From contig NZ_JAQQXS010000006.1 of NCBI RefSeq assembly GCF_028595305.1, positions 186,001 through 250,000 of the forward strand: a DNA stretch of 64,000 nt. Reading direction: 5' to 3'. The position numbers and the translations under genes were made by a program. Below the pieces are notes generated by a model. The model did no database searches. It was not told where the DNA came from and saw only the letters and a list, made by a program, of their open reading frames with translations. This stretch comes from Roseateles koreensis (lineage in GTDB: Bacteria > Pseudomonadota > Gammaproteobacteria > Burkholderiales > Burkholderiaceae_C). Shown piece after piece: positions 3,551-23,114 of this stretch (position 1 is its first letter; each line of letters begins with the position of its first letter).

Positions 3551-3582
3551 GGGTTTGCTGCAAGGTATTGATGCAGTCGTTT

Positions 3583-3592: not shown

Positions 3593-3697
3593 CGGGGTCA
3601 GTCTATGTTTGCCGTTAAGATTTAATGACCCTGCTAACCCTACCTTCCTTGTTTTGGGGTTAATTGATTCCGAAACACTCTTGATTGCGAATTTTTT

Positions 3698-5690: not shown

Positions 5691-5776
5691 ATCAACTCCA
5701 GGGATGATTGAGGTTAAAGGTTCAGAGACGCTGGCGGGCTTGATACAGGGCTGTGATTACCGCCAGCGTGCCCGGC

Positions 5777-6751
5777 CTATGAAGGGCAGGGCGGTAGGTG
5801 CCGGGCGAAGTCGAGCAAGGCCTCGCCAAAGGTGTCGTCGCCACAGGCGCTGTCAAGGTGGGCGACGATAGAGGTGTGGTTGTGCCGCGGTACGCAGATC
5901 AGGCGCGGAATACGACCCTGTGCAAGGCCTGCTTGGTGGCAAAACTCTGCGGCGTAGACGTCCAACCAGGGGTTTTCGTACTCAGCCACCGCAAGCAAGG
6001 TCGGTACATTCAGATGCTGGGCATGACTGACAGCAGAGTCCGCGGCGTAGCGCATTTCGTCCGCCCCAAAATAGGCGATAACCCCTTGAGCATTGGGGTT
6101 GTCGGGTCGAACGTCCGCCCGCAGTCGAGCACTGACCAAGATCGCGCCGGCGATTTTTGGACGGTTCGGGCGGCACCGGGGATCGCACAGGTAACTTGCG
6201 ACGTGTGCGCCGCCGGCGGAGTGACCCATCAATACGATACGGCTAGCGTCACCCGAAAATTCAGCGGCATGGGCACGCACCCAGTCCACCGCCAGACCCA
6301 CATCCAACGCACCCGCTGGAAAGGGAGCCTCGGGTGCCAAGCGATATTCCACATTCACGCCCAGCCACCCGTGGCGGGCGAACAGGCGAGCCACATTGCC
6401 GTAGACCTGATCGTTGCTGTCTTTTTGGCCGCGCACAAAAGCACCGCCGTGCACAAACATCATGATGGGTCGCTGCGCCGCCGCGCTGCCGGTTTCCGGA
6501 CCTTGCCCTTGATCTTGGCCTTGATAGAGGTCCAGGCGTTGCCGCGTGTGCGTCCCGTAGGGCAGATCCCGCGTCACCCGCAGCCCTGGCAAGGAATGAG
6601 CGGCCAGCAGGGGGGTATAGGCCCGCACCATTTGATCCCGGTGATGGTTGATGTCGGCCGCCCAGCGCGGGCCGATGTCAGCAAGGAGTTGTTGGATCGC
6701 TGCGCTGGGCGTGGCGAGGCTGCCGACGTCGGGGGCTTCAATGCCGGTCAT
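5777..6751 (-). CDS. Alpha/beta hydrolase (carboxylesterase-like, BD-FAE type)
   Basis: A 324-residue alpha/beta hydrolase. The oxyanion-hole motif is MFVHGGAFVRGQ, the nucleophile elbow is VLMGHSAGGAH, and the likely acid and His are near the C-terminus (VAEYENPWLDVYAAEF and the HNHTSIVAHL stretch). This architecture is shared by carboxylesterases and by the alpha/beta-type kynurenine formamidases, so arylformamidase activity is possible given kynU nearby, but nothing in the sequence decides this. The start overlaps the end of the ABC ATPase gene by 14 bp, so it is part of the same operon. Confidence 0.75.
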   Translation of the reverse strand: MTGIEAPDVGSLATPSAAIQQLLADIGPRWAADINHHRDQMVRAYTPLLAAHSLPGLRVTRDLPYGTHTRQRLDLYQGQDQGQGPETGSAAAQRPIMMFVHGGAFVRGQKDSNDQVYGNVARLFARHGWLGVNVEYRLAPEAPFPAGALDVGLAVDWVRAHAAEFSGDASRIVLMGHSAGGAHVASYLCDPRCRPNRPKIAGAILVSARLRADVRPDNPNAQGVIAYFGADEMRYAADSAVSHAQHLNVPTLLAVAEYENPWLDVYAAEFCHQAGLAQGRIPRLICVPRHNHTSIVAHLDSACGDDTFGEALLDFARHLPPCPS

Positions 6752-7604
6752 TGAACACGCCCATCAACGCAGACAACTCAGCGATGTATTCACCGTAACG
6801 CGGATCAGACTTGATCTCCTCGGGTTGACGGGGCCGCGGCAGGTCGATTTGAATCTCCTGCACCACCCGACCAGGCCGGCCGGACATCACGATCACCCGG
6901 TCCGACAGAAAAACGGCCTCGGCAATACTGTGCGTCACCAACAAAACCGTCTGCCGCAAGGTTTGCCAGATGCGCAGCAACTCGACATTCAGGCGGTCTC
7001 GAGTGAGCGCATCCAGCGCGCCAAAGGGTTCATCCATTAGCAGGATTTGCGGGTCCAGGGCGAGGATCTGGCCAATCGCGGCACGTTGACGCATGCCGCC
7101 GGAGAGTTGATGCGGATGGTGCTTCTCGAAGCCTTTCAACCCCAATGTCTCGGTCAGTTGCTCGAGCTTGGGGTGTAAGACCTGCATGTCCAGCCCTCGC
7201 AGCTTGGCACCCAGGGCCATATTGTCAGCCACCGTCAACCAGGGCAGCATATTGCTGCTCTGGAACACGACACCGATTTCCGGGCTTGGGCCTTTGACGG
7301 GGCGTTGATTGACCTGAACTTCACCGCCCTGATAAGGTGTTAGCCCCGCGACGATGCGCAACAGCGTGCTCTTGCCACAGCCACTTGGGCCCAGGATGGA
7401 CACAAATTCATGCGGCGCAACGGTGAGGTCCACCGCCTCCAGTGCCTTGACCTCGTGTTTACCAGCAAAGGTCTTCAGGACCTGGCGCACAGCGATGGCG
7501 GGCGCCGTTGCCGGTTCAGATTCGGGGGCAGAGGCGCAAGCTCGCAACGAGGCTGCGGGTGACGAAGCCGGCATGGGCATGCTGTCCTTGTGTGGTTTGT
7601 ACAT
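6738..7604 (-). CDS. ABC transporter ATP-binding protein (SsuB/TauB type)
   Basis: A 288-residue cytoplasmic ATPase of a nitrate/sulfonate/taurine-type importer. Walker A is LGPSGCGKST, the Q-loop is in IGVVFQSSN, the signature is LSGGMRQRAAIG, Walker B is ILLMDEPFGALDA, and the switch His is in LLVTHSIAEA. The N-terminus carries about 40 extra, Ala/Pro-rich residues before the domain. ATG at 7604 was chosen because an upstream GTG at 7649 would overlap the permease gene; the exact start is uncertain. It works with the permease at 7633-8376 and the binding protein at 9015-10043. Confidence 0.9.
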   Translation of the reverse strand: MYKPHKDSMPMPASSPAASLRACASAPESEPATAPAIAVRQVLKTFAGKHEVKALEAVDLTVAPHEFVSILGPSGCGKSTLLRIVAGLTPYQGGEVQVNQRPVKGPSPEIGVVFQSSNMLPWLTVADNMALGAKLRGLDMQVLHPKLEQLTETLGLKGFEKHHPHQLSGGMRQRAAIGQILALDPQILLMDEPFGALDALTRDRLNVELLRIWQTLRQTVLLVTHSIAEAVFLSDRVIVMSGRPGRVVQEIQIDLPRPRQPEEIKSDPRYGEYIAELSALMGVFNDRH

Positions 7605-7632
7605 GAGGGCTAACAATCCAAGATCAAACACA

Positions 7633-8376
7633 TCAGAAAGAAATACCACGCCACCAGACCGCGCGCGCCAGACGTTCCACGCCCCAATACAGCAGCATGG
7701 CCAGTGCGGTGATCACCAGAATGGCGGCGAACATCAAGTCGGTTTGCGCATTGGCGGTGGCCAACGTCATCAGATGCCCCAGACCCTCCTCGGCGCCAAT
7801 GAACTCACCTACGATGGCGCCGATCACGGCGAGCGGCATGGCAATCTTGATGCCGTCGACAAAAGCGGGCAGTGCAGCCGGCACCTGCAGGCGCCAAAAG
7901 CGGTCCCATGCGCTCGCACCCAGTGCGCTGAAATGCTCATCCAGATTGACGGCGACGTTTTGCATGCCGCCGAGTGTGGCCACCACCACCGGAAAAAATG
8001 CGAACAGAAAAGTTGCCGCCAGCTTGGAGGCGAACCCGTAGCCAAACCACACAATCATCAGCGGCGCTAGCGCGATTTTTGGCATGCTTTGCAGGGCTGT
8101 GATCAGGGGGTAAAGCGTGCGGCGCGCCAAAGGGCTGAGTTGAATCAGGACGCCGAAAAGCACGCCCACCACGACCGCCAGACCAAAGCCCGCCAGCACT
8201 TCGAGCAAGGTCACCCAGGTTTCAGACACCAGCATCGCCCGCGCCTCCCAGCCCGCAGCCAGCACCGCGCTCAAAGGCGGAAGCAAGTAACGGCGCACAC
8301 CCAAGCCGCTGACGCCAAACTCCCAAAATGCGGCCAACAGGCCCCAAAAAATCAGTGTTTCTAGCCATCGTTTCAT
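7633..8376 (-). CDS. ABC transporter permease (SsuC/TauC type)
   Basis: A 247-residue inner-membrane protein with about six hydrophobic segments. The EAA-like coupling motif is ALGASAWDRFWRLQVPAALPAFVDGIKIAMPLA, and the family ending AEEGLGHLMTLA is present. It belongs to the BPD_transp_1 group of nitrate/sulfonate/taurine importers. In Burkholderiales this transporter class often serves aromatic acids, thiamine precursors and heterocycles, so the substrate should be read from context rather than from annotation as sulfonate. It is flanked by its ATPase and, after a VOC gene, by its binding protein. Confidence 0.9.
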   Translation of the reverse strand: MKRWLETLIFWGLLAAFWEFGVSGLGVRRYLLPPLSAVLAAGWEARAMLVSETWVTLLEVLAGFGLAVVVGVLFGVLIQLSPLARRTLYPLITALQSMPKIALAPLMIVWFGYGFASKLAATFLFAFFPVVVATLGGMQNVAVNLDEHFSALGASAWDRFWRLQVPAALPAFVDGIKIAMPLAVIGAIVGEFIGAEEGLGHLMTLATANAQTDLMFAAILVITALAMLLYWGVERLARAVWWRGISF

Positions 8377-8402
8377 GCGTGATCACCTTGTCAGCGTCAG
8401 GA

Positions 8403-8978
8403 TCAGGACTTCTTGCCACTCTTGGCGTCAACCACGGCCTGCGGCGGCGGCACCACAAAGCGGGCAAACCGATATTGGTCGAAGGAGTCGATATTGCGTT
8501 CCCACACCTGGGCGCGATGCGCGCTGCCCTCGGGGATCTGGGTCATCTCGCAATACAACTCAACGTTGTTGCCGTCCGGGTCTTTGAACACCAAAAACAG
8601 GTTTTCTCCCGGGCCGTGTTTGCCGATGCCGCGCACAATTTCCACCTGATGGGATTGCAGCACTTTGACGGCGCGCTCCATCTCTGCCATGTTGTCAACC
8701 AGGTAGGAAAAATGCTCAAGCCCCGGACGGCTGTAGCGCGGCAGGTCGTTGAAGTCGGCTTCGGTATTCGAGCCCGGCGCAGGAGCGGGTAGTTGCGACA
8801 GGGCCAGGTCGTGGTGGTCAGCGCCGGCGCGGAGAAACACCATCTGGTCGCTGATCCAGTCGGAGACTTGCATGCCCATCACTTCGGTGTAGAACTTCAC
8901 CGACTTCTGGATGTCTCTCACCATCAATACAAGGTGCCCGAGTTTGCGTGGGCGAATGGGGGTCAGGCTAGTTTCCAT
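8403..8978 (-). CDS. VOC-family protein, extradiol-dioxygenase-like
   Basis: A 191-residue single-module VOC protein. The three canonical metal ligands are visible: His in KLGHLVLMVRD, His in GLEHFSYLVDN and Glu in DGNNVELYCE. The phrase DIQKSVKFYTEVMGMQVSD fits the dioxygenase/glyoxalase fold. A full ligand set supports a catalytic metal, so ring cleavage or a related metal-dependent step is possible. A C-terminal tail of about 45 residues, ending in a Lys/Ser-rich stretch, extends beyond the module. The gene is inserted between the permease and the binding-protein gene of the ABC importer, which suggests a linked role in using the imported compound. Confidence 0.8.
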   Translation of the reverse strand: METSLTPIRPRKLGHLVLMVRDIQKSVKFYTEVMGMQVSDWISDQMVFLRAGADHHDLALSQLPAPAPGSNTEADFNDLPRYSRPGLEHFSYLVDNMAEMERAVKVLQSHQVEIVRGIGKHGPGENLFLVFKDPDGNNVELYCEMTQIPEGSAHRAQVWERNIDSFDQYRFARFVVPPPQAVVDAKSGKKS

Positions 8979-9014
8979 GGGTGGTGCTCGTGATGTCGAT
9001 GGCTGACGAAAATG

Positions 9015-10043
9015 TCAGTCCACAATGAATCGGTTGGTATAGACCTCGGCCCCGCGCACCGCCGCGGTGACTTGAAAGGCCTTCTTCGCGAATTCGATGG
9101 TGCCGTGCATGCGGTCGGCGCGGATGTAGCCTAGCTTTTTGTTGTCGGCGCCTTCGTCGACCATGAGCAATGCGGTCTCTTTGATCTGTTGCAGCAAGAT
9201 GCTTTTGGTGGACAGTTTGGCGCTGGCGGCGATTAGGTCGGCGGCTTCGTCGGGGTTCTTGCGCATGTAGTCATAACCTCGAAACGTCGCGGCAACAAAA
9301 CGCTTGACCAACTCCGGGTTGCTGGCGATCAGCTTTTCATTGGTAACGATGCCATTGCCATAAATGTTCAAGTTGAAATCCCGGTATCGCAGCATGCCCA
9401 CGGTTTTTCCTTCGCGTGCGGCCAGCGCGTCCAACAAGGGCTTGTTTGCGCCTTCCCAGCACTCGGCCAGGTCAATGCGCCCATCCAGAAAGCTGGGGTT
9501 GATGACGGAGGGGTCCAGGCGGAGCAATTTGACGTGAGTGGCGGGCAGGCTGTTGGCCAGCAACCAGGCGGGCACGATGTTCTGCAGGGGCGAGGCTGCT
9601 CCGCCCCCCAGGCTCAACCCCTTCAGGTCGGCCATTTTGCTGATCTTGCGCTTGGGCGATTCCAGGTAGCACAGCGCGGCAGGCCACACGGTGTTGACGG
9701 CACCTACCATCACCGTCTTGCCGCCGTTGGCGCGGTTGAGCATCACGCTGATCGGGTCGCCATAGCCAAACTCAAAAAGGCCCTGATCGATTTCATTGAC
9801 TGTGCGCTGCCCGCCGTAGCCTCGTTGGGTCAGCACTTCAAGGCCCGCCTCGGCGTAGAAACCTTTGGCCACGGCCACCATCACCCCGCCGGTGCTGCCC
9901 TGTGGCAACCATGCGAGGTTGAAACGGACTTTGTCCAGAGCCTGTGCGGGCATAACGCTCATACTCATGAGTATGGTCAGGGCCACAAAGGCGACTGCGC
10001 GGCTGCGGCTGGACGGTCGGGGCTGTCCAGTTTGGAAGTTCAT
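9015..10043 (-). CDS. ABC transporter substrate-binding protein (NMT1/THI5-like)
   Basis: A 342-residue periplasmic binding protein. After a Sec signal peptide ending in MPAQALD it reads KVRFNLAWLPQGSTGGVMVAVAKGFYAEAGLEV, the opening typical of NMT1/SsuA-like proteins. ATG at 10043 is preferred: a longer frame reaches 10190 but would overlap the upstream FAH-family gene by 89 bp, and the signal peptide follows naturally from 10043. It supplies the importer encoded at 6738-8376. Ligand unknown; the family binds pyrimidines, sulfonates and aromatic acids. Confidence 0.88.
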   Translation of the reverse strand: MNFQTGQPRPSSRSRAVAFVALTILMSMSVMPAQALDKVRFNLAWLPQGSTGGVMVAVAKGFYAEAGLEVLTQRGYGGQRTVNEIDQGLFEFGYGDPISVMLNRANGGKTVMVGAVNTVWPAALCYLESPKRKISKMADLKGLSLGGGAASPLQNIVPAWLLANSLPATHVKLLRLDPSVINPSFLDGRIDLAECWEGANKPLLDALAAREGKTVGMLRYRDFNLNIYGNGIVTNEKLIASNPELVKRFVAATFRGYDYMRKNPDEAADLIAASAKLSTKSILLQQIKETALLMVDEGADNKKLGYIRADRMHGTIEFAKKAFQVTAAVRGAEVYTNRFIVD

Positions 10044-10101
10044 GGCAAGTGCCCGGTTGGTGTCAGTGGAGACTGAAGCGCTGACTGGGGTGACAGCGGC
10101 G

Positions 10102-11064
10102 TCAGCCAATGGCCAGCTCTGCGCTTGCTGCAGCAGTTGACGCTGCAACCACCCGGTTGCGAATGCTACCGATGCCGTCGATGCTGGCAATCATCACATC
10201 CCCGGGCTGCAAGAAGACGCCTCGTGCCATGCCCACGCCAGTGGGCGTGCCGGTGGCGATCAAGTCACCGGGGCGCAAGGTCAGCATGGACGAGAGGTAG
10301 GCAATTTGCTCGGCAATGTTGAACACCATGCCCGAGGTGCTGTCGTCTTGCATCATCTGTTCGTTCACTGAGAGGCGCATCCGGAGTGCCTGTGGGTTCT
10401 CAATGCAGTCGCGTGGCACAAGCCACGGACCCATGGGCCCGAAGGTGTCGAAACTCTTTCCGCGAAACCAGTCGTGGGTAAAGGGGTAGTCGCTGCGGCG
10501 ATTCAGGTCACGGGCACTGATGTCGTTGAACACCGTATAACCTGCGACCACGTCCAAAGCGTGCTCGATGCTGACGTTGCGGCATTCGCGTCCGATGACC
10601 ACGCCGAGCTCAATCTCCCAATCGAGCTTGACTGTGTTGTCGGGTTTGACCACATCTTCCTCGGATGCAATCACACTGGTGTCGGCCTTCATGAAGACAT
10701 AGGGCGCACTCTCGCTGCGGGCCGCCAGCTTGGTGCCCATTTCTTTGGCGTGTTCATAGTAGTTTGACGCCGCGCCAAAAATGCGCCGCGGCCGGTAGGG
10801 TGCGCACAATTTGTAGCTCCCCAAGCTCAAAGGCTTGATGGCGCCACGCGCTACCAGCATTTGCAGGGCGTGCGCCATAGCGGCAATTTTGGGTGCGCTG
10901 CACGACCACTGCTCGACTGCAGCTTGGGTGCCGGATTGCAAGGGATGCTCACTCATGTCACAGGCTTTGGCCACGGCGGCGGCGTCATACAACGCGTCGC
11001 CCAACACAAGGGCGGCTTGTGGGCCTTGGCCCTGATCGTAAGAAGCGATGGCGTACCAGTTCAA
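10102..11064 (-). CDS. Fumarylacetoacetate hydrolase (FAH) family protein
   Basis: A 320-residue FAH-fold enzyme. Metal ligands are seen in LDWEIELGVVIG (Glu-x-Glu) and FNDISARDLNR (Asp), and the conserved LRPGDLIATGTPTGVG loop closes the active site. The family includes C-C hydrolases, 2-oxo-4-enoate hydratases and 4-oxalocrotonate decarboxylases of meta-cleavage pathways. It is the first gene of the minus-strand operon that continues to 4381, and a pair of GntR-type sites lies 52-81 bp upstream of its start. A role in processing a ring-cleavage product is likely; the exact reaction is not readable. Confidence 0.85.
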   Translation of the reverse strand: MNWYAIASYDQGQGPQAALVLGDALYDAAAVAKACDMSEHPLQSGTQAAVEQWSCSAPKIAAMAHALQMLVARGAIKPLSLGSYKLCAPYRPRRIFGAASNYYEHAKEMGTKLAARSESAPYVFMKADTSVIASEEDVVKPDNTVKLDWEIELGVVIGRECRNVSIEHALDVVAGYTVFNDISARDLNRRSDYPFTHDWFRGKSFDTFGPMGPWLVPRDCIENPQALRMRLSVNEQMMQDDSTSGMVFNIAEQIAYLSSMLTLRPGDLIATGTPTGVGMARGVFLQPGDVMIASIDGIGSIRNRVVAASTAAASAELAIG

Positions 11065-11115: not shown

Positions 11116-11145
11116 TTGAATACAATATCACCGCCATGTATACAT
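11116..11145. promoter_or_regulatory. Tandem GntR-type operators in the FAH / 2-hydroxyacid dehydrogenase divergent promoter
   Basis: Two related palindromes lie in the 168-bp gap between divergent genes: TTGAATACAA at 11116-11125 and ATGTATACAT at 11136-11145. Their centres are exactly 20 bp apart, two helical turns, so two dimers would sit on the same DNA face. The second is a perfect 10-bp palindrome. The arrangement recurs at 12822 and 15632. Confidence 0.65.
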
Positions 11146-11232
11146 AACAAGGGGTTCAGGGTATGTCCCAGGGAAAATGCCGGAGGCATTGCAAACAGGG
11201 CGGCCCATCTGACCCGCAACCCGGAGTAGTCC

Positions 11233-12195
11233 ATGTCCACAAGAATCGGCTTGTTGATCGTCATTCCACTGCAGCCAGTAGTTCTGCAAGCCTTGCAGCA
11301 ACGTTGCGACGTGATTTACGCGCCAAAGGGTTACGCTGATCCAGTGCTGCTGACGGTAACGCCGGGCCAAAGGGCCTCAGTCAGTGTCCTACTCAGTAAC
11401 GGCAGCACCGGGGCAAGCGCGGCGCAAATGGAAAGATGGCCGAGGTTGCGCTTGATTCATGCTTTTGGCGCTGGATACGAAGGCATAGACGTGAAAGCTG
11501 CGTGCGCTCTAGGCATTGAAGTGAGCCATGCCCCCGGAGTCAACAACGCCACCGTGGCTGACCATGCGTTAGCTTTAATGCTCGGTGCGGCGCGCGGCAT
11601 TGCGCCGTTGGACCGTGCCGTCAAGGCCGGTGCGTGGTTGCATCACAGGGCCGCGCGGCCCAGTGTGAATGGGCGCAGCATCGGGTTGGTTGGCATGGGC
11701 AACATCGGTCAGCAAATTGCCCGCCGTGCGCAGGGATTTGACATGTACATCAGCTACCACAGCCGACAGGCGCGGGTTGATATGCCATACCGTTATGTGC
11801 CTTCTTTGCTGCAGTTGGCTCAGTCGGTCGATTTTCTGATGTTGGCATGCCCAGGTGGCCCCGCCACGCGACACCTCGTCAACCGCCAAGTCTTGCGGGC
11901 CCTTGGGCCCGAGGGCTTTCTTATCAACGTCGCCCGTGGGTCGGTGGTGAACACCGAAGATTTGATCGCGGCACTGAAAGCTGGCGAAATTGCCGGTGCT
12001 GCGCTTGACGTGCTGGAGGATGAGCCCGACGTGCCGCAGGCCTTGTTGGGCATGGAGCAAGTACTGTTGACACCCCATATCTCCGGCCGCTCCCCCGAGG
12101 CGCAAGAGGCGCAGTTGCGCGCCTTTGAATCCAATATGGCGGCCTGCATCGCAGGGGGGATCCCGCCAAATCAAGTGCCTGGTGCAGGCACTTGA
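11233..12195 (+). CDS. D-isomer-specific 2-hydroxyacid dehydrogenase
   Basis: A 320-residue NAD(P)-dependent dehydrogenase. The Rossmann motif is GLVGMGNIGQQIARRAQGF; catalytic residues are the Arg of INVARGSVVNTE, the Glu of LDVLEDEPDV and the His of LTPHISGRSPEA. The substrate-side segment HAFGAGYEGIDVKAACALGIEVSHAPGVNNATVADHAL is typical. It interconverts a 2-oxo acid and a D-2-hydroxy acid; the substrate is open. It is divergent from the FAH-family operon and shares its GntR sites, so it is probably co-regulated. An 11-bp inverted repeat (12170-12180 with 12186-12196) overlaps its stop codon. Confidence 0.9.
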   Translation: MSTRIGLLIVIPLQPVVLQALQQRCDVIYAPKGYADPVLLTVTPGQRASVSVLLSNGSTGASAAQMERWPRLRLIHAFGAGYEGIDVKAACALGIEVSHAPGVNNATVADHALALMLGAARGIAPLDRAVKAGAWLHHRAARPSVNGRSIGLVGMGNIGQQIARRAQGFDMYISYHSRQARVDMPYRYVPSLLQLAQSVDFLMLACPGGPATRHLVNRQVLRALGPEGFLINVARGSVVNTEDLIAALKAGEIAGAALDVLEDEPDVPQALLGMEQVLLTPHISGRSPEAQEAQLRAFESNMAACIAGGIPPNQVPGAGT

Positions 12196-12196
12196 T
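12170..12196. terminator. Hairpin at the convergent end of two genes
   Basis: ATCAAGTGCCT (12170-12180) pairs perfectly with AGGCACTTGAT (12186-12196) around a GGTGC loop. It lies between the convergent dehydrogenase and VOC genes and overlaps the dehydrogenase stop codon. There is no U tract on either side, so it is a stable hairpin but not a textbook intrinsic terminator. Confidence 0.4.
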
Positions 12197-12220
12197 CGGC
12201 GGTATGCCAGCTATGTTGGT

Positions 12221-12691
12221 TCAAAGTCCCTGGCGGTCTGCCTTCAAGTCGGGATGGCGCAGTGCAGGGGCCTCGTCGGCACCCACCACGTTTTTGGCGG
12301 CGCCTCCCCATCCCCTGTCGGTGAGGTCAATGATGACGCCATTCGGATCTTTGTACTTGACCTCGTAGAAGATGTTGCCCTTGATGGGAACTTCACCCAT
12401 GTAGTAATTGCCGCCGGCGGCCTCGCAGTCTTGTCGAGCTTGCCCGATTTCGTCGACCCAGAATCCGATGTGGTGCAGCCCTACATAGTCACGCCCGCGC
12501 TCGCCAGCGGCTTGGTCTGTCTTGTAGTTCAGTAGCGCCACGCACATGACGCCGTCGCTAAGGTAGACCCCCCGCGCCAGTGAGGAATCGGTTTCTCCGA
12601 CCTTCTTCATGCCGAAGGCCTTTTCGTAAAAGGGCGCCACTGCCCAGGGGTCGGGGACGGAAATTGCGATGTGTCTCAGTTTGCCAGCCAT
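12221..12691 (-). CDS. VOC-family protein
   Basis: A 156-residue VOC protein. It has the first His in KLRHIAISVPDPW, a second in VGLHHIGFWVDE, and the closing motif DPNGVIIDLTDRGW, where the usual Glu ligand is replaced by Asp. ATG at 12691 is chosen because AGGAGA sits 6 bases upstream and the module begins directly after it. It could be a lyase, dioxygenase or isomerase; the fold alone does not decide. It is divergent from gntR and shares the operator pair at 12822-12851. Confidence 0.8.
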   Translation of the reverse strand: MAGKLRHIAISVPDPWAVAPFYEKAFGMKKVGETDSSLARGVYLSDGVMCVALLNYKTDQAAGERGRDYVGLHHIGFWVDEIGQARQDCEAAGGNYYMGEVPIKGNIFYEVKYKDPNGVIIDLTDRGWGGAAKNVVGADEAPALRHPDLKADRQGL

Positions 12692-12821
12692 GAAGTTCTC
12701 CTGAAAGAAGTGTGTTGAAAGCAGATTGATCGAGGGTGTGATATGAGGGCAGCAGTTTGAACTGCGGGTTTCACGCCGAGACCGTGAGTGGGTCATGCGA
12801 TAGGGCAGATTTCGCAACTGC

Positions 12822-12851
12822 ATGTATACATCAAAATGATTATGTATTCAA
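12822..12851. promoter_or_regulatory. Tandem GntR-type operators in the VOC / gntR divergent promoter
   Basis: ATGTATACAT (12822-12831) is a perfect 10-bp palindrome. ATGTATTCAA (12842-12851) is a relative with its centre 20 bp away. The pair lies between the VOC gene and the gntR gene, about 90 bp before the regulator's start, so autoregulation is expected. Confidence 0.65.
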
Positions 12852-12937
12852 ATAGTGGTTTGCGCCATGCAATTGGACGTCAGGCGGATAGAATCTGCAC
12901 CATCTGTTCATCAGCAATCGCAGACAAGGGCCTTGCC

Positions 12938-13807
12938 ATGGGAAATGCTTCAGCCGGCATCTGCCGCAGCCTCACCGAAGACATCGTCAGCGGGCGTCTG
13001 CCTCCGGGCCAGAAGCTGGAGGAGTTGGTGCTCGCCGAGCGCTTTCAAGTCTCCCGCACACCCATTCGGGAGGCTCTGCGGGAGTTGCATGCCCGAGGGC
13101 TTATCGCCTTGGAGCCGCGCAAAGGTGGCATCGTGCGCAGCATTGGCTTGCAAGATCTGTCTGACATGCTGGAAGCGATGGTCGAGTTGGACGCCTTGTG
13201 CTGCCGCATCAGTGCGGAACGCATGAGCGCGGTCCAGAAGAAACAACTCGCCATGGTGCAAGCGCAGAGCGAAGAGTGCGTCGCCCGGGGGGATGAGGTG
13301 GGCTATCTGGGCCTGAATCACCAGTTCCATCAACTGATCAGTGCGGGCGCGCAGAACCACACCTTGACGGAGATGTTGAGCAAACTGCGCGAACGCCTGG
13401 CCCCGTTCCGCGCCGCGCAAACCAAGGTGGAGCGCCGGCTTGCGGTGTCGCATGACGAGCACCAAGCCATCCTCGCCGCAATCCAGTCTGGCGACGCGGA
13501 AGCGGCCTATGAGGCCATGCGCAATCACACAGCGCGCCTGAGCATCAATGTGCTTGATTTATTGCGTCAGCAGCAAAATGGTGGCGAAGCGGGCTCTGCG
13601 GACAGCACGCCGCAATCCGCCGCGCAGGCATCTCGGTCCACCGTGACGGCAAGCGAAAAAAGCACCGCAAAAAAAACGGTGCCGCGCAAGCGCACCACAC
13701 CCGCTGCGGCGACTCAAATTGGCAAGGTTGACAAGATCAGCAAGGCCAACAATTCTGCCAAAGTGCTGGCGCCGGTGAAGGTAAGCCGGGCGGTGAAGGG
13801 CAGGTGA
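12938..13807 (+). CDS. GntR-family (FCD) transcriptional regulator with basic C-terminal tail
   Basis: A 289-residue regulator. Residues 5-75 form the GntR winged HTH (LTEDIVSGRLPPGQKLEE, FQVSRTPIREALRELHARGL, LEPRKGG). Residues 80-215 are an FCD ligand domain with metal-type positions in LNHQFHQLI and the HDEHQAILAAI helix. Beyond about residue 215 is an Ala/Thr/Lys-rich, low-complexity tail (for example KSTAKKTVPRKRTT) not needed for the fold. ATG at 12938 is preferred because the HTH follows at once; a longer frame from 12788 runs through the operator. It is the best candidate to bind the ATGTATACAT sites found in four promoters of this island. Confidence 0.88.
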   Translation: MGNASAGICRSLTEDIVSGRLPPGQKLEELVLAERFQVSRTPIREALRELHARGLIALEPRKGGIVRSIGLQDLSDMLEAMVELDALCCRISAERMSAVQKKQLAMVQAQSEECVARGDEVGYLGLNHQFHQLISAGAQNHTLTEMLSKLRERLAPFRAAQTKVERRLAVSHDEHQAILAAIQSGDAEAAYEAMRNHTARLSINVLDLLRQQQNGGEAGSADSTPQSAAQASRSTVTASEKSTAKKTVPRKRTTPAAATQIGKVDKISKANNSAKVLAPVKVSRAVKGR

Positions 13808-13955
13808 TGGCAAGGCCGGCAGTACACGTCATGCTTGCCAACTGGGTGGTCTCCATTTTTGCGGGCAGCCACCCAAACCGCCCTAATCACCGGCCATGCT
13901 GATTTTCGCAGAGCTTGCCTGGGCCTGAGCCGCTGTTCTTTACATTCGGATTGAT

Positions 13956-14390
13956 ATGAAACCAACAACCCGGCGTGTAGTCCAGGCCGTCCTTTACGAA
14001 GTTTTTGCCGTTGTCGTGGTGGGGCCTGCCTTGGCAACCATTTTTGATGAATCCGTGGTCTCCACGATGGGACTTGCTTTTCTCATGTCCACGGTGGCTT
14101 TGGCCTGGAATTACATTTTCAATGCTTGGTTTGAGCGCTGGGAAGCAAAGCAACCCATCAAGGGGCGGTCGCTCTTGCGGCGCTTGGCGCATGGTGCCGG
14201 CTTTGAGGGCGGACTCGTCGTGGTGCTCGTCCCCATCATGGCGTGGTGGCTGAATACGTCGCTGCTCAATGCGTTTATTGCAGACTTGGGTGTTTTGGCA
14301 TTCTTTTTTGTTTACGCCGTGGTCTTCACTTGGGCCTTTGATCGTGTCTTTGGGTTGCCTGAATCAGCCGCATCGACTTTAGAGTCATAA
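13956..14390 (+). CDS. PACE-family (AceI-like) multidrug efflux protein
   Basis: A 144-residue membrane protein with four predicted transmembrane helices in two tandem BTP (bacterial transmembrane pair) modules. Features are RRVVQAVLYEVFAVVVVGPAL at the start, with the conserved helix-1 Glu needed for proton-coupled transport in AceI, then WNYIFNAWFERWE. The second copy repeats the pattern as RRLAHGAGFEGGLVVVLVPI and FVYAVVFTWAFDRVFG. PACE proteins export chlorhexidine, acriflavine and short-chain diamines. It is an isolated gene between the gntR regulator and a convergent porin and ends at a bidirectional terminator. Confidence 0.88.
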   Translation: MKPTTRRVVQAVLYEVFAVVVVGPALATIFDESVVSTMGLAFLMSTVALAWNYIFNAWFERWEAKQPIKGRSLLRRLAHGAGFEGGLVVVLVPIMAWWLNTSLLNAFIADLGVLAFFFVYAVVFTWAFDRVFGLPESAASTLES

Positions 14391-14395
14391 CGAGC

Positions 14396-14436
14396 AATCA
14401 CTGCTGACCAATTCCAGCGTGGACAGCAGTGATTTT
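14396..14436. terminator. Bidirectional intrinsic terminator
   Basis: AATCACTGCTG (14396-14406) pairs with CAGCAGTGATT (14424-14434); a small inner stem, TCCA/TGGA, shortens the loop, and TTTTG follows. It lies between the end of the PACE gene and the end of the convergent porin gene and can serve both. Confidence 0.7.
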
Positions 14437-14467
14437 GTCGCGTTGATTGGGGCTGAATTTCGCTCGG

Positions 14468-15610
14468 TCAGAATTTGTGAGTCATGCCCAGGCCCCAGCC
14501 CTTGGCATCCTGACCTGTCGCCTGCCCGGGGAAGGGGTTGGCTGACAGTTTGTAGGCGGCTGTACTGCCGTTCTTGAGGAACGTCCAGCCGGCCCAAATT
14601 TCGGTGCGGCGTGAGAGGTTGTAGCCGCCGCCCAGGGCCCATTGGCTCGCGCCCGAGTCGCTTCCAGGCGCGCCGATACTGCCAATGGAGCCGGCAAAAT
14701 TGCCTGTTGAAGCGTCTGCGTGAACATGGCTCACGCGCCACTGCCATGGGCCCATGTCATGGGTGGCAGCCACTTGCCAAGCGTTGCGGTCCAGGTGGGT
14801 GCCCGGTTTGGGTTCATAGTGCAGTCGCTCCCAGCTGGCGCGCAGGCGAGTGCTTCCCCAACTGTAGGCCGCGCCCAATCGGTCGGCGCTGTCATGGCTG
14901 CCTGCGACGAAGTAGTCGCGGTGAATTTCATGCCCCCAGGCGAGGTAGAGAGGTCCGGCGCTGTAGGTAATCAGGCTCGAGAGCAGGTCGGGTGCGGTGG
15001 TGGCGGTTTTCTCTTCGCTCACTGCGTAGGCAAGGCGGCCTTGCCAACCTTGGAGGTCAGGGCTGCTGTACTGCAGCAGATTGGGTGCGCGACGGTCGAA
15101 TGAGTTCGGCGATACACCGTTTGCGGCTGTCACGAAGCCATTGCCCATGATGCTGTTGGAGGCAAACAGGCTGGCTGTGAAAGGGTCAATGGCGTACACC
15201 GAGACGAAGCGCAGCGGCGTTTCCCATTGGCCCATCAAAATTTCGCCCCAGCGGCCGCGCAGGCCTACCGCAGTGTTGCGGCCGCCCCAGGGTGCATCGC
15301 CAGTGTCGACTTTGACGTTGGTTTCGATCTGGCCCCAGGCCGTGAAGCCATCGCCCAAGTCTTCTGTGACCCGAAACCCCAGCAGCGACAAGTCGTTGGA
15401 CAGGCGATTCAAGCTTTGTCCCGGCACAGTGGCGGTGGCGCCGGTGGAGACCTGTTCGACGTTTGCTTTCAAAAATCCGTAGATGGATGCGGTGCTCGAG
15501 TCGGGTGAGATTTGAGCCAGCGCTTGGCCAGAACTCGTAGCCAAGCCCATGGCCAGGGCGCACAGGGTCAACGCGGCGGGCAAGGTCGGATTGAGAGAAT
15601 GGGTTCGCAT
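14468..15610 (-). CDS. Gram-negative porin
   Basis: A 380-residue outer-membrane porin. It has a Sec signal peptide ending near GQALAQ, then STASIYGFLKANVEQVS, the region SLLGFRVTEDLGDGFTAWGQIET, and the C-terminal beta strand GLGMTHKF with terminal Phe. The start ATG at 15610 gives the cleanest signal peptide; an ATG at 15625 is also in frame. The two GntR-type sites lie just upstream at 15632-15661, so this porin is probably induced with the island and admits its substrate. It is divergent from the molybdo-hydroxylase operon. Confidence 0.88.
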   Translation of the reverse strand: MRTHSLNPTLPAALTLCALAMGLATSSGQALAQISPDSSTASIYGFLKANVEQVSTGATATVPGQSLNRLSNDLSLLGFRVTEDLGDGFTAWGQIETNVKVDTGDAPWGGRNTAVGLRGRWGEILMGQWETPLRFVSVYAIDPFTASLFASNSIMGNGFVTAANGVSPNSFDRRAPNLLQYSSPDLQGWQGRLAYAVSEEKTATTAPDLLSSLITYSAGPLYLAWGHEIHRDYFVAGSHDSADRLGAAYSWGSTRLRASWERLHYEPKPGTHLDRNAWQVAATHDMGPWQWRVSHVHADASTGNFAGSIGSIGAPGSDSGASQWALGGGYNLSRRTEIWAGWTFLKNGSTAAYKLSANPFPGQATGQDAKGWGLGMTHKF

Positions 15611-15631
15611 GCAAGCTTTCATCAAGTATTT

Positions 15632-15661
15632 GTGTATACATGAAACTTAACATGTATTTAT
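15632..15661. promoter_or_regulatory. Tandem GntR-type operators in the porin / hydroxylase divergent promoter
   Basis: GTGTATACAT (15632-15641) and ATGTATTTAT (15652-15661) are relatives of ATGTATACAT with centres 20 bp apart. A further partial match, TTGAATACAG, is at 15701-15710, closer to the hydroxylase gene. Control of both the porin and the molybdo-hydroxylase operon is inferred. Confidence 0.6.
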
Positions 15662-15785
15662 AAGAACAACAAGATGCCACTTTGAGGTGCGGCTTGGCGA
15701 TTGAATACAGCTCTCCTGATTGTGCTAGTTTTTGACTTAATCAGCGAAAATTTTGCGTTTGTGCAAATGGCTGGTTGACGGTTCA

Positions 15786-18050
15786 ATGGCGGCCATGGCA
15801 CAAGATTCCTTCACCGACAAACCGACGAGCAGCGCGCCGTTTCCCGCCTTTGTGAACGAGGCCCACTCCGTGGCCTGGATGGACGAAGGTTTGTTGCGTA
15901 CCGAAGACGCACGGCTGCTGCGCGGCGAGGGGGGCTTTGTGGCCAATCGGGTTGCGCCGGGCACGGTGCATGCCGTCTTTGTGCGCAGCCCCCACGCACA
16001 TGCCCGCATCACCGAGATCCAGGCCGACGACGCGCGTTGCAGCCCGGGTGTATTGACAGTCTTGACCCCCGTTGACTTTGCCGGGCTGCGTCAACCCCCT
16101 GTCAATCCCTTGCTGCCGGGCATGCAATCGCCAAGCGCTGACTTGCTGCCGCAAGACCGCGTGCTGGCCGTCGGCGCACCGGTGGTGCTGGTGGTGGCTG
16201 AAACCTTGCAGCAGGCGCAGACGGCAGCAGATTTAGTGTGGGTGGACTATCAAGACCTGCCCCACGCTACTGATTTTGATGCGACCGCAACTGCGTTGTA
16301 CGCTTCGATGCCCAGCAATCTTGCCATTGACGCGCGGGTGCAGGTGGGCCAGGTGCCGGCCGGCGCCCCTAGCGCGCAAGCCAGCGTGGAGCTGCCTCGG
16401 GTGGCCGCTTCACCGCTGGAGCCGCGTGCGGCTTTGATGCAATGGCATGGCGAGACGCAAACCCTGCAGGCTTGTCTGTCGACGCAGACGCCCAGCCGAG
16501 CCCGGGAAGATTTGGCCGCCGCGCTCGCGTTGCAACCGGCGCAGGTGCGCGTCATCGCGACTGATGTGGGGGGGGCCTTTGGCGCCAAGGCCTCGGTGTT
16601 TGCGGAGGATCTGATGCTGGCCGCGGCCGCCTGTCGCGCTGAACTGAATGGCCGCCCCGTGCGTTGGTTGGCCACCCGTGGTGAAGATCTTTTGGCGGGC
16701 ACGCATGGCCGGGCGTCAAGGCTGCAGGGCCGCCTGTGGTTGGACACGCAAGGCCGCTTCACAGGCTTGGACGCACACCTGCAGTTTGCACTGGGGCATT
16801 GGCTGCCTTTCAGCGCTGCCGCGCCGATCCGCAATGCCTCGCGCATCTTGCCCGGTCCCTACGCGGTGGAGGCCTTGCAAGTGCATGCCCAGGCGCATCT
16901 GAGCCATGCGGCTGCGGTGGGCATCTACCGGGGTGCCGGTCGTCCGGAGGCCTGCATCTTGATGGAGCGTCTGGTGGACGCCGCCGCCCGGGCGCAAGGG
17001 TTGGACCCCTTGGACCTGCGCCTTCTCAATGCCTGGCGGGCCCAGGACCTGCCCCGCGCCTTGCCCAGTGGCGAGTGGCTGGACCGCTGCGACTTACCCG
17101 CCTTGCTGGAACGGGCCGCCGTCTTGTTTAACTATCGAGAGCGCCGCCAGCAGCAGGCGCAAGAGCGCCAGCAACAGACTGAGCCCCATGCTTCTCCCGC
17201 GCCCTTGCGCGGCCTGGGCATGGCCCTGTACGTGGAACCTTGCGGGCAGGGCGGCGAGAGCGCTCGCCTGACTGCCTTGCCAGACGGCCGCTTTCTGCTG
17301 GCCACCGGCTCCAGCGCGCAAGGGCAGGGCCGTGAAACCGCCTATGCCTTGATCGCTGCGCAAGCCCTGGGTTGCCTGCCAGTCGATGTCACGGTGGTGC
17401 ACGGCGACACAGCGCATTGCCCACCGGGCGTGGGCGCGCTGGCGAGCCGCAGCACGGCCATCGGGGGCTCCGCCATTCTTGCCGCGGCTGAGCAACTTCA
17501 TGCGCAATTGGCGGGTGGGGCTGCCTTGCCCTGCAGCGTCGAGCTGTTCCATCACGTGAGCCATGAGGCTTGGGCTTCAGGTTGCTTGATGGTCGAGATG
17601 CTGATAGACCGCGACACAGGCCAGCCCCGTATCACTGAACTGGTGTGGGTGGACGACGCCGGCGTGCTGGTGCACCCTGATCTGGTGCACGGCCAACTGG
17701 TGGGCGGACTGGCGCAGGGGTTGGGGCAGGCTTTGATGGAACGCATCGTCTACGACGACAACGGACAACTCATCACCGGCTCGCTGATGGACTACGCCCT
17801 GCCTCGGGCGGAGGACATGCCCCAACTGACGCTGGAGAGCCTGGCCACCCGCAGCGCCGCCAACGCCCTGGGGGCCAAAGGGGTGGGCGAGGCAGGCTGC
17901 ATCGGTCTGCCTGCAGCCCTGCTGAACGCCGCGCATGACGCGCTGGCTCAACTGACACCGCCAGGCCAACCGCCGCGTGAATCTGCCGCCTCGCTGGCGT
18001 TCCCGTTGACTGCGCCGCAGCTGTGGCACGCCATGCAAGCGCCGGCCTGA
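15786..18050 (+). CDS. Molybdenum hydroxylase large subunit (xanthine dehydrogenase / CoxL family)
   Basis: A 754-residue molybdopterin-cytosine-dinucleotide-type subunit. Visible motifs are the N-terminal domain (EDARLLRGEGGFVAN, VFVRSPHAHARI), the cofactor-binding ATDVGGAFGAKASVF and GIYRGAGRPEACILMERLVD, the GSSAQGQGRETAYALIAAQAL segment, and the catalytic Glu in LGAKGVGEAGCIGLPAAL near the C-terminus. Such enzymes insert water-derived oxygen into N-heteroaromatic rings, aldehydes or CO. The CO dehydrogenase active-site loop is not seen, so ring hydroxylation is more likely. It forms a holoenzyme with the subunits at 19122 and 19612. ATG at 15786 or 15795 is plausible; an upstream TTG at 15753 is less so. 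Confidence 0.9.
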   Translation: MAAMAQDSFTDKPTSSAPFPAFVNEAHSVAWMDEGLLRTEDARLLRGEGGFVANRVAPGTVHAVFVRSPHAHARITEIQADDARCSPGVLTVLTPVDFAGLRQPPVNPLLPGMQSPSADLLPQDRVLAVGAPVVLVVAETLQQAQTAADLVWVDYQDLPHATDFDATATALYASMPSNLAIDARVQVGQVPAGAPSAQASVELPRVAASPLEPRAALMQWHGETQTLQACLSTQTPSRAREDLAAALALQPAQVRVIATDVGGAFGAKASVFAEDLMLAAAACRAELNGRPVRWLATRGEDLLAGTHGRASRLQGRLWLDTQGRFTGLDAHLQFALGHWLPFSAAAPIRNASRILPGPYAVEALQVHAQAHLSHAAAVGIYRGAGRPEACILMERLVDAAARAQGLDPLDLRLLNAWRAQDLPRALPSGEWLDRCDLPALLERAAVLFNYRERRQQQAQERQQQTEPHASPAPLRGLGMALYVEPCGQGGESARLTALPDGRFLLATGSSAQGQGRETAYALIAAQALGCLPVDVTVVHGDTAHCPPGVGALASRSTAIGGSAILAAAEQLHAQLAGGAALPCSVELFHHVSHEAWASGCLMVEMLIDRDTGQPRITELVWVDDAGVLVHPDLVHGQLVGGLAQGLGQALMERIVYDDNGQLITGSLMDYALPRAEDMPQLTLESLATRSAANALGAKGVGEAGCIGLPAALLNAAHDALAQLTPPGQPPRESAASLAFPLTAPQLWHAMQAPA

Positions 18051-18109
18051 ATTTGCCACCGTTTGACAAGCGATTTTGTTTTTCGAATTTGAACCTGGAG
18101 CACTTCCTG

Positions 18110-19069
18110 ATGGACTACACCAAGCAAGACGCCAAGGCATATGCCAAGGCCCATTTCACCGGCGTCTGGGCGGCGATGCTGACCCCCTTCAAGCCCGACG
18201 GATCGATGGACGAAGCCGCATTTCGCGCCAATGTGGCGCATTGGACGGGTGCCCTCAAACTGGGCGGTTTGTTCGTTGCCGGCAAGCAGGGCGAGTTTTT
18301 CTCGATGTCGATGGCGGAGCGCAAGCGCAGCTTCACCCTGGCTGCCGAAGTGGCGCGGCAACATGGCTCGCGCACGGTGATGTCGTGCTCGGACACCAAC
18401 CTTGACACCGTGCTGGAACTGGGCCGCCACGCGCAAGACTGCGGTGCCGACTGGATCGTGGTGCACAGCCCCGTGCTGCATTTCGGCGCAGACACTGACG
18501 AGACGATTTACGAGTACTACCGCTATATCAGTGAGCAACTCGACATCGGCATCGCCATGTGGAACCACCCCGATTGCGGCTACCTCATGAGCCCTGAGTT
18601 GTGTGCGCGTATTGCGGAGCTGCCCAATATCGTGGCCATCAAGTACAGCGTGCCGCGTGAGATGTACGTCGAGTTGAGCCGTTTGGTCGGCGACAAGATT
18701 CAGGTCAGCACGGCGTCTGAAGAAGAGTGGCTGGACAACATTGAAGAGCTTGGCTGGCGCCTGTACCTGTGCTCAACCCCGCCGCTGCTTCTGCAGACCG
18801 CCGTGGATCAGCGCATCAACGAGTACACGCGCCTTGCTTTCGAAGGCCGTTTTGCCGAGGCCCGTGTGGTCCGCGACAGCCTGGAGCCTGCCCGCCAAGC
18901 CTTCAAGGCCAGCAAGCCCAAGGGCAAGCCACAGGCCCATAGCAAGTATTGGCTGGAATTGCTGGGGCAAGCAGGGGGGGCCGTGCGGCGCCCGCTGCTG
19001 CAGCTGAGCGAGGTGGAAAAAGCGCTCATTCGCGAGCAATTCGCCAAGAGCGGCTTGAAGCTAGCCTGA
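18110..19069 (+). CDS. DapA-superfamily protein lacking the usual catalytic Tyr
   Basis: A 319-residue TIM-barrel protein of the dihydrodipicolinate synthase superfamily. It has the opening FTGVWAAMLTPFKPDGSMD and the Schiff-base Lys in NIVAIKYSVPREM. The position normally holding Tyr (YN.P) reads Trp in GIAMWNHPDCGYLMSPEL, so proton relay must differ from DapA. ATG at 18110 is preferred over the in-frame extension to 18023, which runs back into the preceding gene's end. It sits between the large and small subunits of the hydroxylase, so it most likely acts on the same pathway as an aldolase, hydratase-aldolase or hydrolase. No closer function can be assigned. Confidence 0.8.
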   Translation: MDYTKQDAKAYAKAHFTGVWAAMLTPFKPDGSMDEAAFRANVAHWTGALKLGGLFVAGKQGEFFSMSMAERKRSFTLAAEVARQHGSRTVMSCSDTNLDTVLELGRHAQDCGADWIVVHSPVLHFGADTDETIYEYYRYISEQLDIGIAMWNHPDCGYLMSPELCARIAELPNIVAIKYSVPREMYVELSRLVGDKIQVSTASEEEWLDNIEELGWRLYLCSTPPLLLQTAVDQRINEYTRLAFEGRFAEARVVRDSLEPARQAFKASKPKGKPQAHSKYWLELLGQAGGAVRRPLLQLSEVEKALIREQFAKSGLKLA

Positions 19070-19121
19070 GCTTGCACCCATCCACCGCTTACCTCCCCGT
19101 GACCCCACCGAGAACCTTGGC

Positions 19122-19619
19122 GTGACTCATTTCAACCTCAAGCTGACCCTGAATGGCCGTCCTTGCGAGCGCCGGCCGCGCAATGCGGCACTGCTCGTCG
19201 AAGTGCTGCGTGACGATCTGGGCCTTACCGGCACACACATCGGCTGCGACACCGCGCAGTGCGGCGCGTGCACCGTCGTGATGGAAGGCCGGGCCGTCAA
19301 GGCTTGCAATGTGTTGGCCGCGCAAGCGCAGGGCAGCACCGTTGAAACGGTGGAAAGCCTGGCAAGCTTGAATGAAGCGGGGCAGTTGCATGCGCTTCAG
19401 CGTGCGTTTTCTCGCCATCATGCCTTGCAGTGCGGCTACTGCACGCCCGGCATGCTGATGCGCGCAAAGGCCATGCTGGCAGAGGGCGTGCCCGCAGAAG
19501 ACAGTGCGGTGCGCAAGGCCTTGGCCGGCAATCTGTGCCGCTGCACCGGGTATGAAGGCATCGTCGCCGCCATTTGTGAGTGGTTGGCCGCCGAACGGGG
19601 AGTTGCATCCTATGCGTGA
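19122..19619 (+). CDS. Molybdenum hydroxylase small (2Fe-2S) subunit
   Basis: A 165-residue iron-sulfur subunit. The plant-type ferredoxin cluster is bound by GCDTAQCGACTVVMEG and a following KACN Cys; the C-terminal helical cluster by LQCGYCTPGM and GNLCRCTGYEGI. All eight Cys are present. It relays electrons from the molybdenum centre to FAD. The start is GTG at 19122. It overlaps the FAD-subunit gene by 8 bp, so the two are translationally coupled. Confidence 0.93.
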   Translation: MTHFNLKLTLNGRPCERRPRNAALLVEVLRDDLGLTGTHIGCDTAQCGACTVVMEGRAVKACNVLAAQAQGSTVETVESLASLNEAGQLHALQRAFSRHHALQCGYCTPGMLMRAKAMLAEGVPAEDSAVRKALAGNLCRCTGYEGIVAAICEWLAAERGVASYA

Positions 19620-20436
19620 CTTCGAATACTGCCGCCCGAGCAGTTTGGCCGATGTGCTGGCTTTGTTGCGCGATGGGGCGGACAGCAAGCTGCTGGCCGG
19701 TGGGCAAAGCCTGCTGGGTGCCATGAAGCTCGGCTTGATGGCGCCGGAGCGCATCGTCGATCTGGCCGGTGTGCCGGAGCTTCAAGGGGGCTGCCGCGTT
19801 ACCCGCGATCACTTGACGCTGGGCGCCATGCAGACCCACGCGTCCTTGGCCCGCAATGCGGCGCTTCAGGCCTGGGCGCCTGGCTTGGCCGATCTGGCCG
19901 GCCACATTGCGGACGAACAGGTGCGCAGCATGGGCACCATTGGGGGCTCGCTGGCCAATGCGGACCCCTCGGCATGTTGGCCCGCCGCCATGTTGGCGGT
20001 GGGTGCGAGCCTCGTGACCGACCGACGCACCGTTGAGGTGGATGATTACTTCTGCGGCTTGTTCAGCACGGCGTTGGAGCCCGATGAGGTTTTGTGCGGC
20101 CTTCGCTTGCGGCGGCCCCGCCGCTTTGCTTATCTGAAGCATGAGCAGGCTGCCTCGCGGTTTGCGTTGGTGGGTGTCGCCATCTCCCAATTCGATCAAC
20201 CCGACTTGACGGGCACCACGGTGCGCGTGGCTTTGACCGGCACCGCACAAGGTGCCGTGCGGCTACCGGCGTTCGAACAGGCCTTGAGCCGTGACTTCAG
20301 CCCCGACGCCTTGAAAGGCTTGTCGGTCGATGCGGACCTGATGTCCAGCGACGTGCACGGCGATGCCCACTACCGCGCCCATCTGGCCGCCGTGGTGGCA
20401 CGGCGAGCCGTTTCCAAAGCGATTGAGATCTTTTGA
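19612..20436 (+). CDS. Molybdenum hydroxylase FAD-binding (medium) subunit
   Basis: A 274-residue FAD subunit of the CoxM/CutM family. FAD pyrophosphate-binding motifs are LLAGGQSLLGAMKLGLMAPERIVDL and MGTIGGSLANADPSACWPAAML; the C-terminal CO_deh_flav_C domain begins around residue 170. ATG at 19612 fits the family start (MRDFEYCRPSSLADVLALL). With 15786-18050 and 19122-19619 it completes an L-M-S hydroxylase. Its stop overlaps the aspartate dehydrogenase start in an ATGA. Confidence 0.93.
   Translation: MRDFEYCRPSSLADVLALLRDGADSKLLAGGQSLLGAMKLGLMAPERIVDLAGVPELQGGCRVTRDHLTLGAMQTHASLARNAALQAWAPGLADLAGHIADEQVRSMGTIGGSLANADPSACWPAAMLAVGASLVTDRRTVEVDDYFCGLFSTALEPDEVLCGLRLRRPRRFAYLKHEQAASRFALVGVAISQFDQPDLTGTTVRVALTGTAQGAVRLPAFEQALSRDFSPDALKGLSVDADLMSSDVHGDAHYRAHLAAVVARRAVSKAIEIF

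Positions 20437-22370: not shown

Positions 22371-23114
<744 letters not shown>

Follow-up and report, generated by a model that had tools for sequence, protein, structure and literature searches.

A 64,000-nt stretch of the Roseateles koreensis genome (contig NZ_JAQQXS010000006.1, positions 186,001-250,000; hereafter the window, on which all site coordinates are based) carries a putative catabolic island that includes gntR, a gene encoding a GntR-type regulator, and a set of 10-bp palindromes in intergenic regions that are candidate operators of this regulator. The genes of the island and the candidate operators, termed strong or weak by their match to the palindrome ATGTATACAT, are as follows.

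2282-3550, minus strand: kynU, a second kynureninase and proposed target (NCBIfam TIGR01814 above cut-off), a paralogue tied to gntR-bearing genomes
3563-3572: weak second operator (half-site) of the kynU promoter, AGGTATTGAT, 7/10 matches, 20 bp from the site at 3583
3583-3592: strong operator in the kynU/lrp gap, ATGTATACAA
3698-4168, plus strand: lrp, an Lrp/AsnC-type regulator divergent from kynU and a rival candidate for the binding protein
4381-11064, minus strand: proposed target operon of fah, nmt1, voc1, ABC permease and ATPase, alpha/beta hydrolase, DHDPS-like and RidA-like genes, all in one direction and in an order kept in mapped relatives
11116-11125: weak second operator of the fah promoter, TTGAATACAA, overlapping a -10-like TATTGT (minus strand)
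11136-11145: strong fah-promoter operator, ATGTATACAT, located in the spacer of TTGTTA-N17-TATTGT at its -35 end
11233-12195, plus strand: D-2-hydroxyacid dehydrogenase, divergent from fah
12221-12691, minus strand: voc2, a glyoxalase-superfamily protein (start taken at MAGKLRH), divergent from gntR
12822-12831: strong operator in the voc2/gntR gap, ATGTATACAT, unchanged in 11/11 genomes (the window, nine relatives from the family sample and L043)
12842-12851: weak second operator in the voc2/gntR gap, ATGTATTCAA
12938-13807, plus strand: gntR, a GntR/FCD (VanR-group) regulator of 289 amino acids (Pfam GntR and FCD)
14468-15625, minus strand: porin, divergent from the molybdo-hydroxylase genes
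15632-15641: strong operator in the porin/molybdo-hydroxylase gap, GTGTATACAT
15652-15661: weak second operator in the porin/molybdo-hydroxylase gap, ATGTATTTAT
15753-20436, plus strand: proposed target operon of a three-subunit molybdo-hydroxylase and a DHDPS-like gene, followed by an aspartate dehydrogenase-like gene

Seven of these sites had been reported in a preliminary description of this DNA, which placed pairs with centres exactly 20 bp apart in three of the gaps; all seven are present when re-read from the window sequence, and the coordinates and spacing of the pairs are confirmed. Every pair in the window, taken in one reading direction, consists of a strong palindrome (9-10/10 matches to ATGTATACAT) followed by a weaker one (7-8/10). 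The palindrome upstream of kynU had been regarded as single, and although the strong site stands, its singleness does not, as the half-site at 3563-3572 is a weak partner at the same distance. The spacing had also been equated with two helical turns; the 20 bp hold, however at 10.5 bp per turn they correspond to 1.9 turns rather than 2.

The enrichment of single sites is mild: with up to two mismatches the 10-mer has 13 matches in the window against 5.6 expected, a count reached by 2/100 shuffles, and the strength of the pattern rests on pairing and conservation. The core TGTATACA occurs seven times in the whole genome, four copies being window sites and three lying within open reading frames (ORFs) without a 20-bp partner. 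A genome-wide search for the paired motif, proposed as a check in the preliminary description, returned three exact matches to TGTATACAT-N9-11-TGTATT in 4.37 Mb, all of them the window pairs, with none for the backward control; allowing up to two mismatches adds two matches, of which one is the gntR pair read from the opposite strand and the other lies elsewhere in the genome, and the control then gives one. A common second site at +20 across the four window promoters scores 30/40, which none of 20,000 flank shuffles equalled at any offset, although three of the four promoters had been picked beforehand by the preliminary description.

The spacing was then followed among relatives. In a family sample of 299 genomes, ten have a gntR orthologue of at least 82% identity and 15 more have only relatives of at most 46%. 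When the gap was left free between 0 and 30, 19 pair matches were found; in 16 the gap is 11, which puts the centres 20 bp apart, and the backward control gave one match. All 16 fall within eight of the ten genomes that have the gntR orthologue, and the other three matches (gaps of 29, 12 and 1) come from genomes without an orthologue at the cut-off used; the remaining two gntR-bearing genomes (G144 and G297) carry similar pairs with base changes. Of 49 aligned operators (55 less six near-duplicate Pandoraea promoters, L054 and L058), 37 have a 20-bp partner scoring 7/10 or better; any other distance from 10 to 50 accounts for at most 3/49, with a background of 15/3920 offsets. The alignments include three of eight Pandoraea loci, and the G144 porin operator is absent from the class averages.

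Offsets per genome were compared in the window, nine family genomes and L043, here labelled the Roseateles group (n = 11; n = 10 for porin, and ten loci for kynU). An offset of +20 is best or joint best in 11/11 fah, 10/11 gntR, 5/10 porin (-20 in six) and 7/10 kynU promoters; it gives the best mean in all four of these unrelated promoters, and the second-operator columns are conserved above the spacer in every promoter class. Seven of ten porin promoters form a three-rung ladder, with a partner scoring 6/10 or better on either side (-20 and +20); the window's own porin promoter is not among them. The kynU partner is a half-site with the consensus ..ATACAG read towards kynU, 20 bp downstream, where +20 is again the best mean offset.

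Occurrence of the palindrome follows occurrence of gntR. All 31 exact copies of ATGTATACAT in the ten gntR-bearing genomes lie at the fah, gntR/voc2, porin or kynU promoter, and no exact copy was found in G013 or G228, two genomes of the same genus that both lack gntR. Two copies of kynU are present in 10/10 gntR-bearing genomes (the host's other copy is G000:C2:163902-165203); G013 and G228 have one, 52-53% identical, with no 9/10 site beside it. The palindrome in the kynU/lrp gap, with 9-10/10 matches, is kept in all ten gntR-bearing genomes, even where kynU sits on another contig, and extension of the regulon to kynU is supported by this comparison. One of the 31 copies is a second ATGTATACAT in G174, 268 bp from the porin operator and with its own 20-bp partner of 7/10 (L078:6852-6861 and 7120-7129; also L121); between the two sites lies a 41-residue stretch resembling the end of gntR, perhaps a gene remnant. 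Seven further genomes hold unpaired or unassigned copies: exact ATGTATACAT once each in the L043 and L051 genomes (in similar surroundings), twice in G300, once in G299 and twice in the L060 genome, and ATGTATACAA twice each in G301 and G302. Among these extra copies a 20-bp partner of at least 7/10 was found only for one off-island ATGTATACAT in the Pandoraea genome G300 (L111:1981-2010), with an 8/10 partner at -20.

Beyond the Roseateles group, Pandoraea loci carry the palindrome at fah and porin in 8/8 cases and at gntR in 7/8, and the porin site has a 20-bp partner in all eight; of these porins, only that of L052 was confirmed by Pfam. A 20-bp pair also stands upstream of gntR, in different surroundings, in two nearly identical loci from alphaproteobacteria, L062 and L063 (the former omitted from the alignment as a near copy of the latter), which encode a GntR 43-47% identical. 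In the stretches examined, no such pair was found at more distant GntR relatives (41-46% identity, L027-L042) or in L064-L072, so the spacing code is not general to FCD GntR regulators. The more independent evidence is that of four promoters within one genome together with the Pandoraea porin and alphaproteobacterial pairs.

The gntR product, whose start at MGNAS was chosen because close orthologues begin there, belongs to the FCD subfamily of the GntR superfamily (PF00392, 61.6 bits with a cut-off of 27; PF07729, 89.1 bits with a cut-off of 24.3). An AlphaFold2 model built from 18 sequences (mean predicted local distance difference test score 77, predicted template modelling score 0.61) has the six C-terminal helices characteristic of the VanR group (residues 71-95, 98-117, 120-138, 141-159, 167-184 and 187-214). 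Four predicted metal ligands, N127, H131, H175 and H197, are invariant in the 18 sequences, as are E29, R40, T41 and R44. The first helix begins at residue 4, and a lysine-, alanine- and proline-rich basic tail of about 75 residues extends from about residue 215 (window 13580-13807). This tail, possibly a non-specific DNA-binding one, is present at varied length in 11/11 Roseateles-group orthologues and absent from the aligned Pandoraea and alphaproteobacterial relatives. It was rejected as the cause of pairing, as 20-bp pairs are kept in the eight Pandoraea porin promoters and the two alphaproteobacterial loci, where the aligned proteins (L052, L054, L058 and L063) are tail-less.

FCD GntR repressors with palindromes and double sites are a known kind. 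The VanR-group regulator Atu1419 of Agrobacterium fabrum (PDB 6Z74, 6ZA0, 6ZA3 and 6ZA7) was crystallised on ATGTATACAT (PMC7797058), the identical 10 bp found at 11136, at 12822 and in relatives, the match here being one of sequence. In that account Atu1419 also combines a winged helix-turn-helix with a six-helix FCD domain and corresponding metal ligands, and is an autoregulated repressor of an aromatic-acid catabolic region with strong and degenerate palindromes (PMC7797058). By our assignment from residue spacing, its DNA contacts Glu34, Arg45, Thr46 and Arg49 correspond to E29, R40, T41 and R44, and its ligands Asn137, His141, His192 and His214 to N127, H131, H175 and H197, with the N-H spacing of 4 and H-H spacing of 22 matching. 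These residue and operator correspondences support, and do not prove, binding of the palindrome by GntR. The differences are that the sites of Atu1419 lie 190 and 109 bp apart, with a loop seen for the 190-bp pair, whereas those of GntR are 20 bp apart; that N5,N10-methylenetetrahydrofolate is its proposed effector; and that a basic C-terminal tail, found in the Roseateles GntR, goes unmentioned for Atu1419 in the available text (PMC7797058). Foldseek places Atu1419 first (28% identity, target template modelling (TM) score 0.70), however with this identity, a different set of island genes here (kynU, fah and molybdo-hydroxylase) and a nearer protein by sequence, GntR does not appear to be its orthologue.

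That nearer protein is PmiR of Pseudomonas aeruginosa (PDB 7XP0 and 7XP1), compared by sequence and fold alone. In Escherichia coli NanR, another FCD GntR, several dimers bind cooperatively and close together on one operator with a required spacing; its operator consists of three GGTATA direct repeats in contrast to the palindromes here, and its cooperativity depends on a 32-residue N-terminal extension (PMC8012715), which the island GntR lacks, its first helix starting at residue 4. A survey of GntR motifs gives a FadR-subfamily consensus, TKGT/ACMA with GT and AC 2-3 nt apart, that fits TGTATACA, and records double sites at a relatively constant distance in 29/100 FadR-subfamily divergons with the regulator gene (PMC4494728). 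Its extra weak boxes, however, lie 7-12 nt from the site centre with boxes at -20/-21 serving as the control (PMC4494728), so the 20-bp rule would be a different feature; the present scan covered whole sites at distances of 10-50, with the second site at 20 bp. Another VanR-group regulator binds as a dimer to a palindrome over the -10 region, with two further weak sites, and differs in its operator, ATTGTCAGACAAT, and its genes, while DhdR, an FCD protein among the fold matches, has the operator GTTATCAGATAAC (PMC8651671). The 20-bp phasing sets the island GntR apart from both the Atu1419 loop and the NanR repeats.

Taken together, four promoters of one catabolic island appear to be marked by an autoregulated GntR repressor through a strong and a weak operator two turns apart, a reading to which we assign a probability of roughly three in four. 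From the arrangement of sites we infer the following mechanism. GntR would be an FCD repressor of the VanR group with a conserved putative metal site, the dimer of which would recognise the 10-bp palindrome ATGTATACAT. At each promoter a strong operator would be followed by a weaker one 20 bp, or about two turns, further on, so that two dimers could occupy neighbouring positions on almost the same face of the DNA, and the strong site would be filled first and help to fill the weak one. The strong/weak design suggests such seeding, and cooperative binding of two dimers can reasonably be inferred from the fixed spacing. At fah, the spacer of TTGYYA-N17-TATTGT begins with the strong site, and its -10-like element is overlapped by the weak one, in 14/14 promoters (11 of the Roseateles group and three of Pandoraea), an arrangement that fits repression: the bound pair, covering spacer and -10-like element, would block RNA polymerase. 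GntR would also control itself together with voc2, the porin and molybdo-hydroxylase genes and the dedicated second kynureninase, and a metabolite of the island would release it.

A more specific form of this reading, to which we give somewhat less than an even chance, is a phased ladder in which GntR dimers dock next to one another in 20-bp steps, on a strong seed site plus one or two weak ones, providing one operator grammar for the whole island with its own kynureninase. Such an assembly in cis might tentatively be set apart from the looping of Atu1419 and the extension-driven packing of NanR.

Several observations weigh against repression by GntR from paired sites. The DNA-contact residues of GntR are probably common to many FCD regulators with other operators. 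Several of the corresponding Atu1419 residues are conserved in FadR (PMC7797058). PmiR exceeds Atu1419 in both identity (31-32%) and target TM score (0.73-0.76) in Foldseek, and by sequence it is the nearest solved protein (7xp0, E 2.1e-21) with Atu1419 second, so GntR is no closer kin to Atu1419 than to PmiR. Pairing at every promoter is not an absolute rule: the kynU partner is weak, reaching 7/10 in two of ten genomes; the three aligned Pandoraea gntR promoters have one site and no partner; the Pandoraea fah partner scores 4-5/10; and L061 has single sites or a 21-bp pair. No site of at least 9/10 was found in the loci examined for L051 (GntR 66-70% identical) and L060 (55-57%). The genomes of the group are related, so that counts among them overstate independence, and overlap with the -10-like element may explain part of the conservation of the second site at fah.

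An alternative that keeps some weight, although we consider it doubtful, is that one GntR tetramer spans both sites, or loops between promoters, a behaviour seen in Atu1419 over 190 bp. The top fold match, Atu1419, is itself tetrameric, and the distances of 1.7 and 2.8 kb between the strong fah, gntR and porin sites would allow loops. Within the Atu1419 tetramer, however, the two DNA sites are separated by about 10 nm (PMC7797058), whereas 20 bp of straight DNA measures about 6.8 nm by our arithmetic, and the exact phasing suggests adjacent contacts.

It is unlikely that GntR binds the strong palindromes singly, the second sites being remnants or promoter elements and the 20 bp a matter of promoter architecture. 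A single palindrome is enough for binding by Atu1419 (PMC7797058), the fah pair coincides with the promoter motif throughout, and at gntR a weak fit to TATACA-N16-TTCAAT, built from operator bases, is seen in 6/11 promoters. Promoter spacing was nevertheless rejected as the general cause, as no constant -35/-10 pair lies over the operators of the porin and kynU promoters in aligned relatives. The common best offset in four unrelated promoters, the porin promoters with partners on both sides and the pair upstream of the alphaproteobacterial gntR in other surroundings argue in the same direction.

Less probable still is that the palindromes are bound by the Lrp/AsnC-type protein encoded beside kynU, or by a LysR-type protein encoded beside the 3-hydroxyanthranilate 3,4-dioxygenase gene, with gntR a mere neighbour. 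The lrp gene adjoins the kynU site in 10/10 gntR-bearing genomes, so co-occurrence alone cannot separate GntR from Lrp. Lrp-type proteins also often bind phased arrays of sites. The Pandoraea loci, however, carry the sites at fah, porin and gntR, and searches of two Pandoraea genomes gave 45% identity for the best Lrp (against 88% in the L043 genome) and 53-54% for the best kynU, with no LysR match at E 1e-60 among the best 150 of 172-177 candidates scored. Since the sites persist in these genomes although no close relatives of Lrp, LysR or the second kynU were found there, the binding protein is likely to be GntR, and Lrp or LysR is made unlikely. The palindrome is, moreover, the solved operator of an FCD GntR, and an unlinked FCD GntR gene in the L060 genome (L114:1989-2753) carries ATGTATACAT at its 5' end, a hint that the same palindrome may serve further FCD regulators. 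The proposal in the preliminary description that the gntR product is the binder is thus supported by comparative genomics, through co-occurrence, the kynU site kept across contigs, Pandoraea and the operator identity with Atu1419. That the sites are chance or low-complexity intergenic AT palindromes can practically be dismissed, as despite the modest single-site enrichment this is ruled out by the genome pair search, the flank shuffles and the free-gap preference for a gap of 11.

Other features of the island were noted alongside its operators. A conserved CATAGACTGGCC-like block adjoins the kynU operator in relatives (window 3593-3607, CATAGACTGACC on the minus strand) and could be a -10 region, either of kynU or of lrp, or else a binding site for Lrp. 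Between gntR and porin lies a gene for a PACE-family efflux transporter (13956-14390; NF033664 above cut-off), matched in the window only among the mapped loci. Five ORFs checked between the D-2-hydroxyacid dehydrogenase gene and voc2 of one relative gave no hint of a pathway. Beside the molybdo-hydroxylase are genes for an aspartate dehydrogenase-like protein (20433-21278) and 3-hydroxyanthranilate 3,4-dioxygenase (22428-23114), both above NCBIfam cut-offs; with the kynureninase and dioxygenase models passing their cut-offs, a kynurenine- or hydroxyanthranilate-like substrate is suggested for the island. No literature was found on a GntR regulator with kynureninase and molybdopterin genes or on this island or regulator, and a term search of one paper on a kynurenine biosensor found no KynR site.

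The island offers a compact candidate regulon that can be tested: predictions exist for its regulator, its operator, the spacing rule and the targets, and a related protein has been crystallised on the operator. Phasing of exactly 20 bp at promoters unrelated to one another would make it a clean system for studying cooperation in cis between FCD GntR dimers, and its association with a second kynureninase points to a putative kynurenine-like catabolic pathway in Roseateles and Paucibacter and, to some extent, in Pandoraea.

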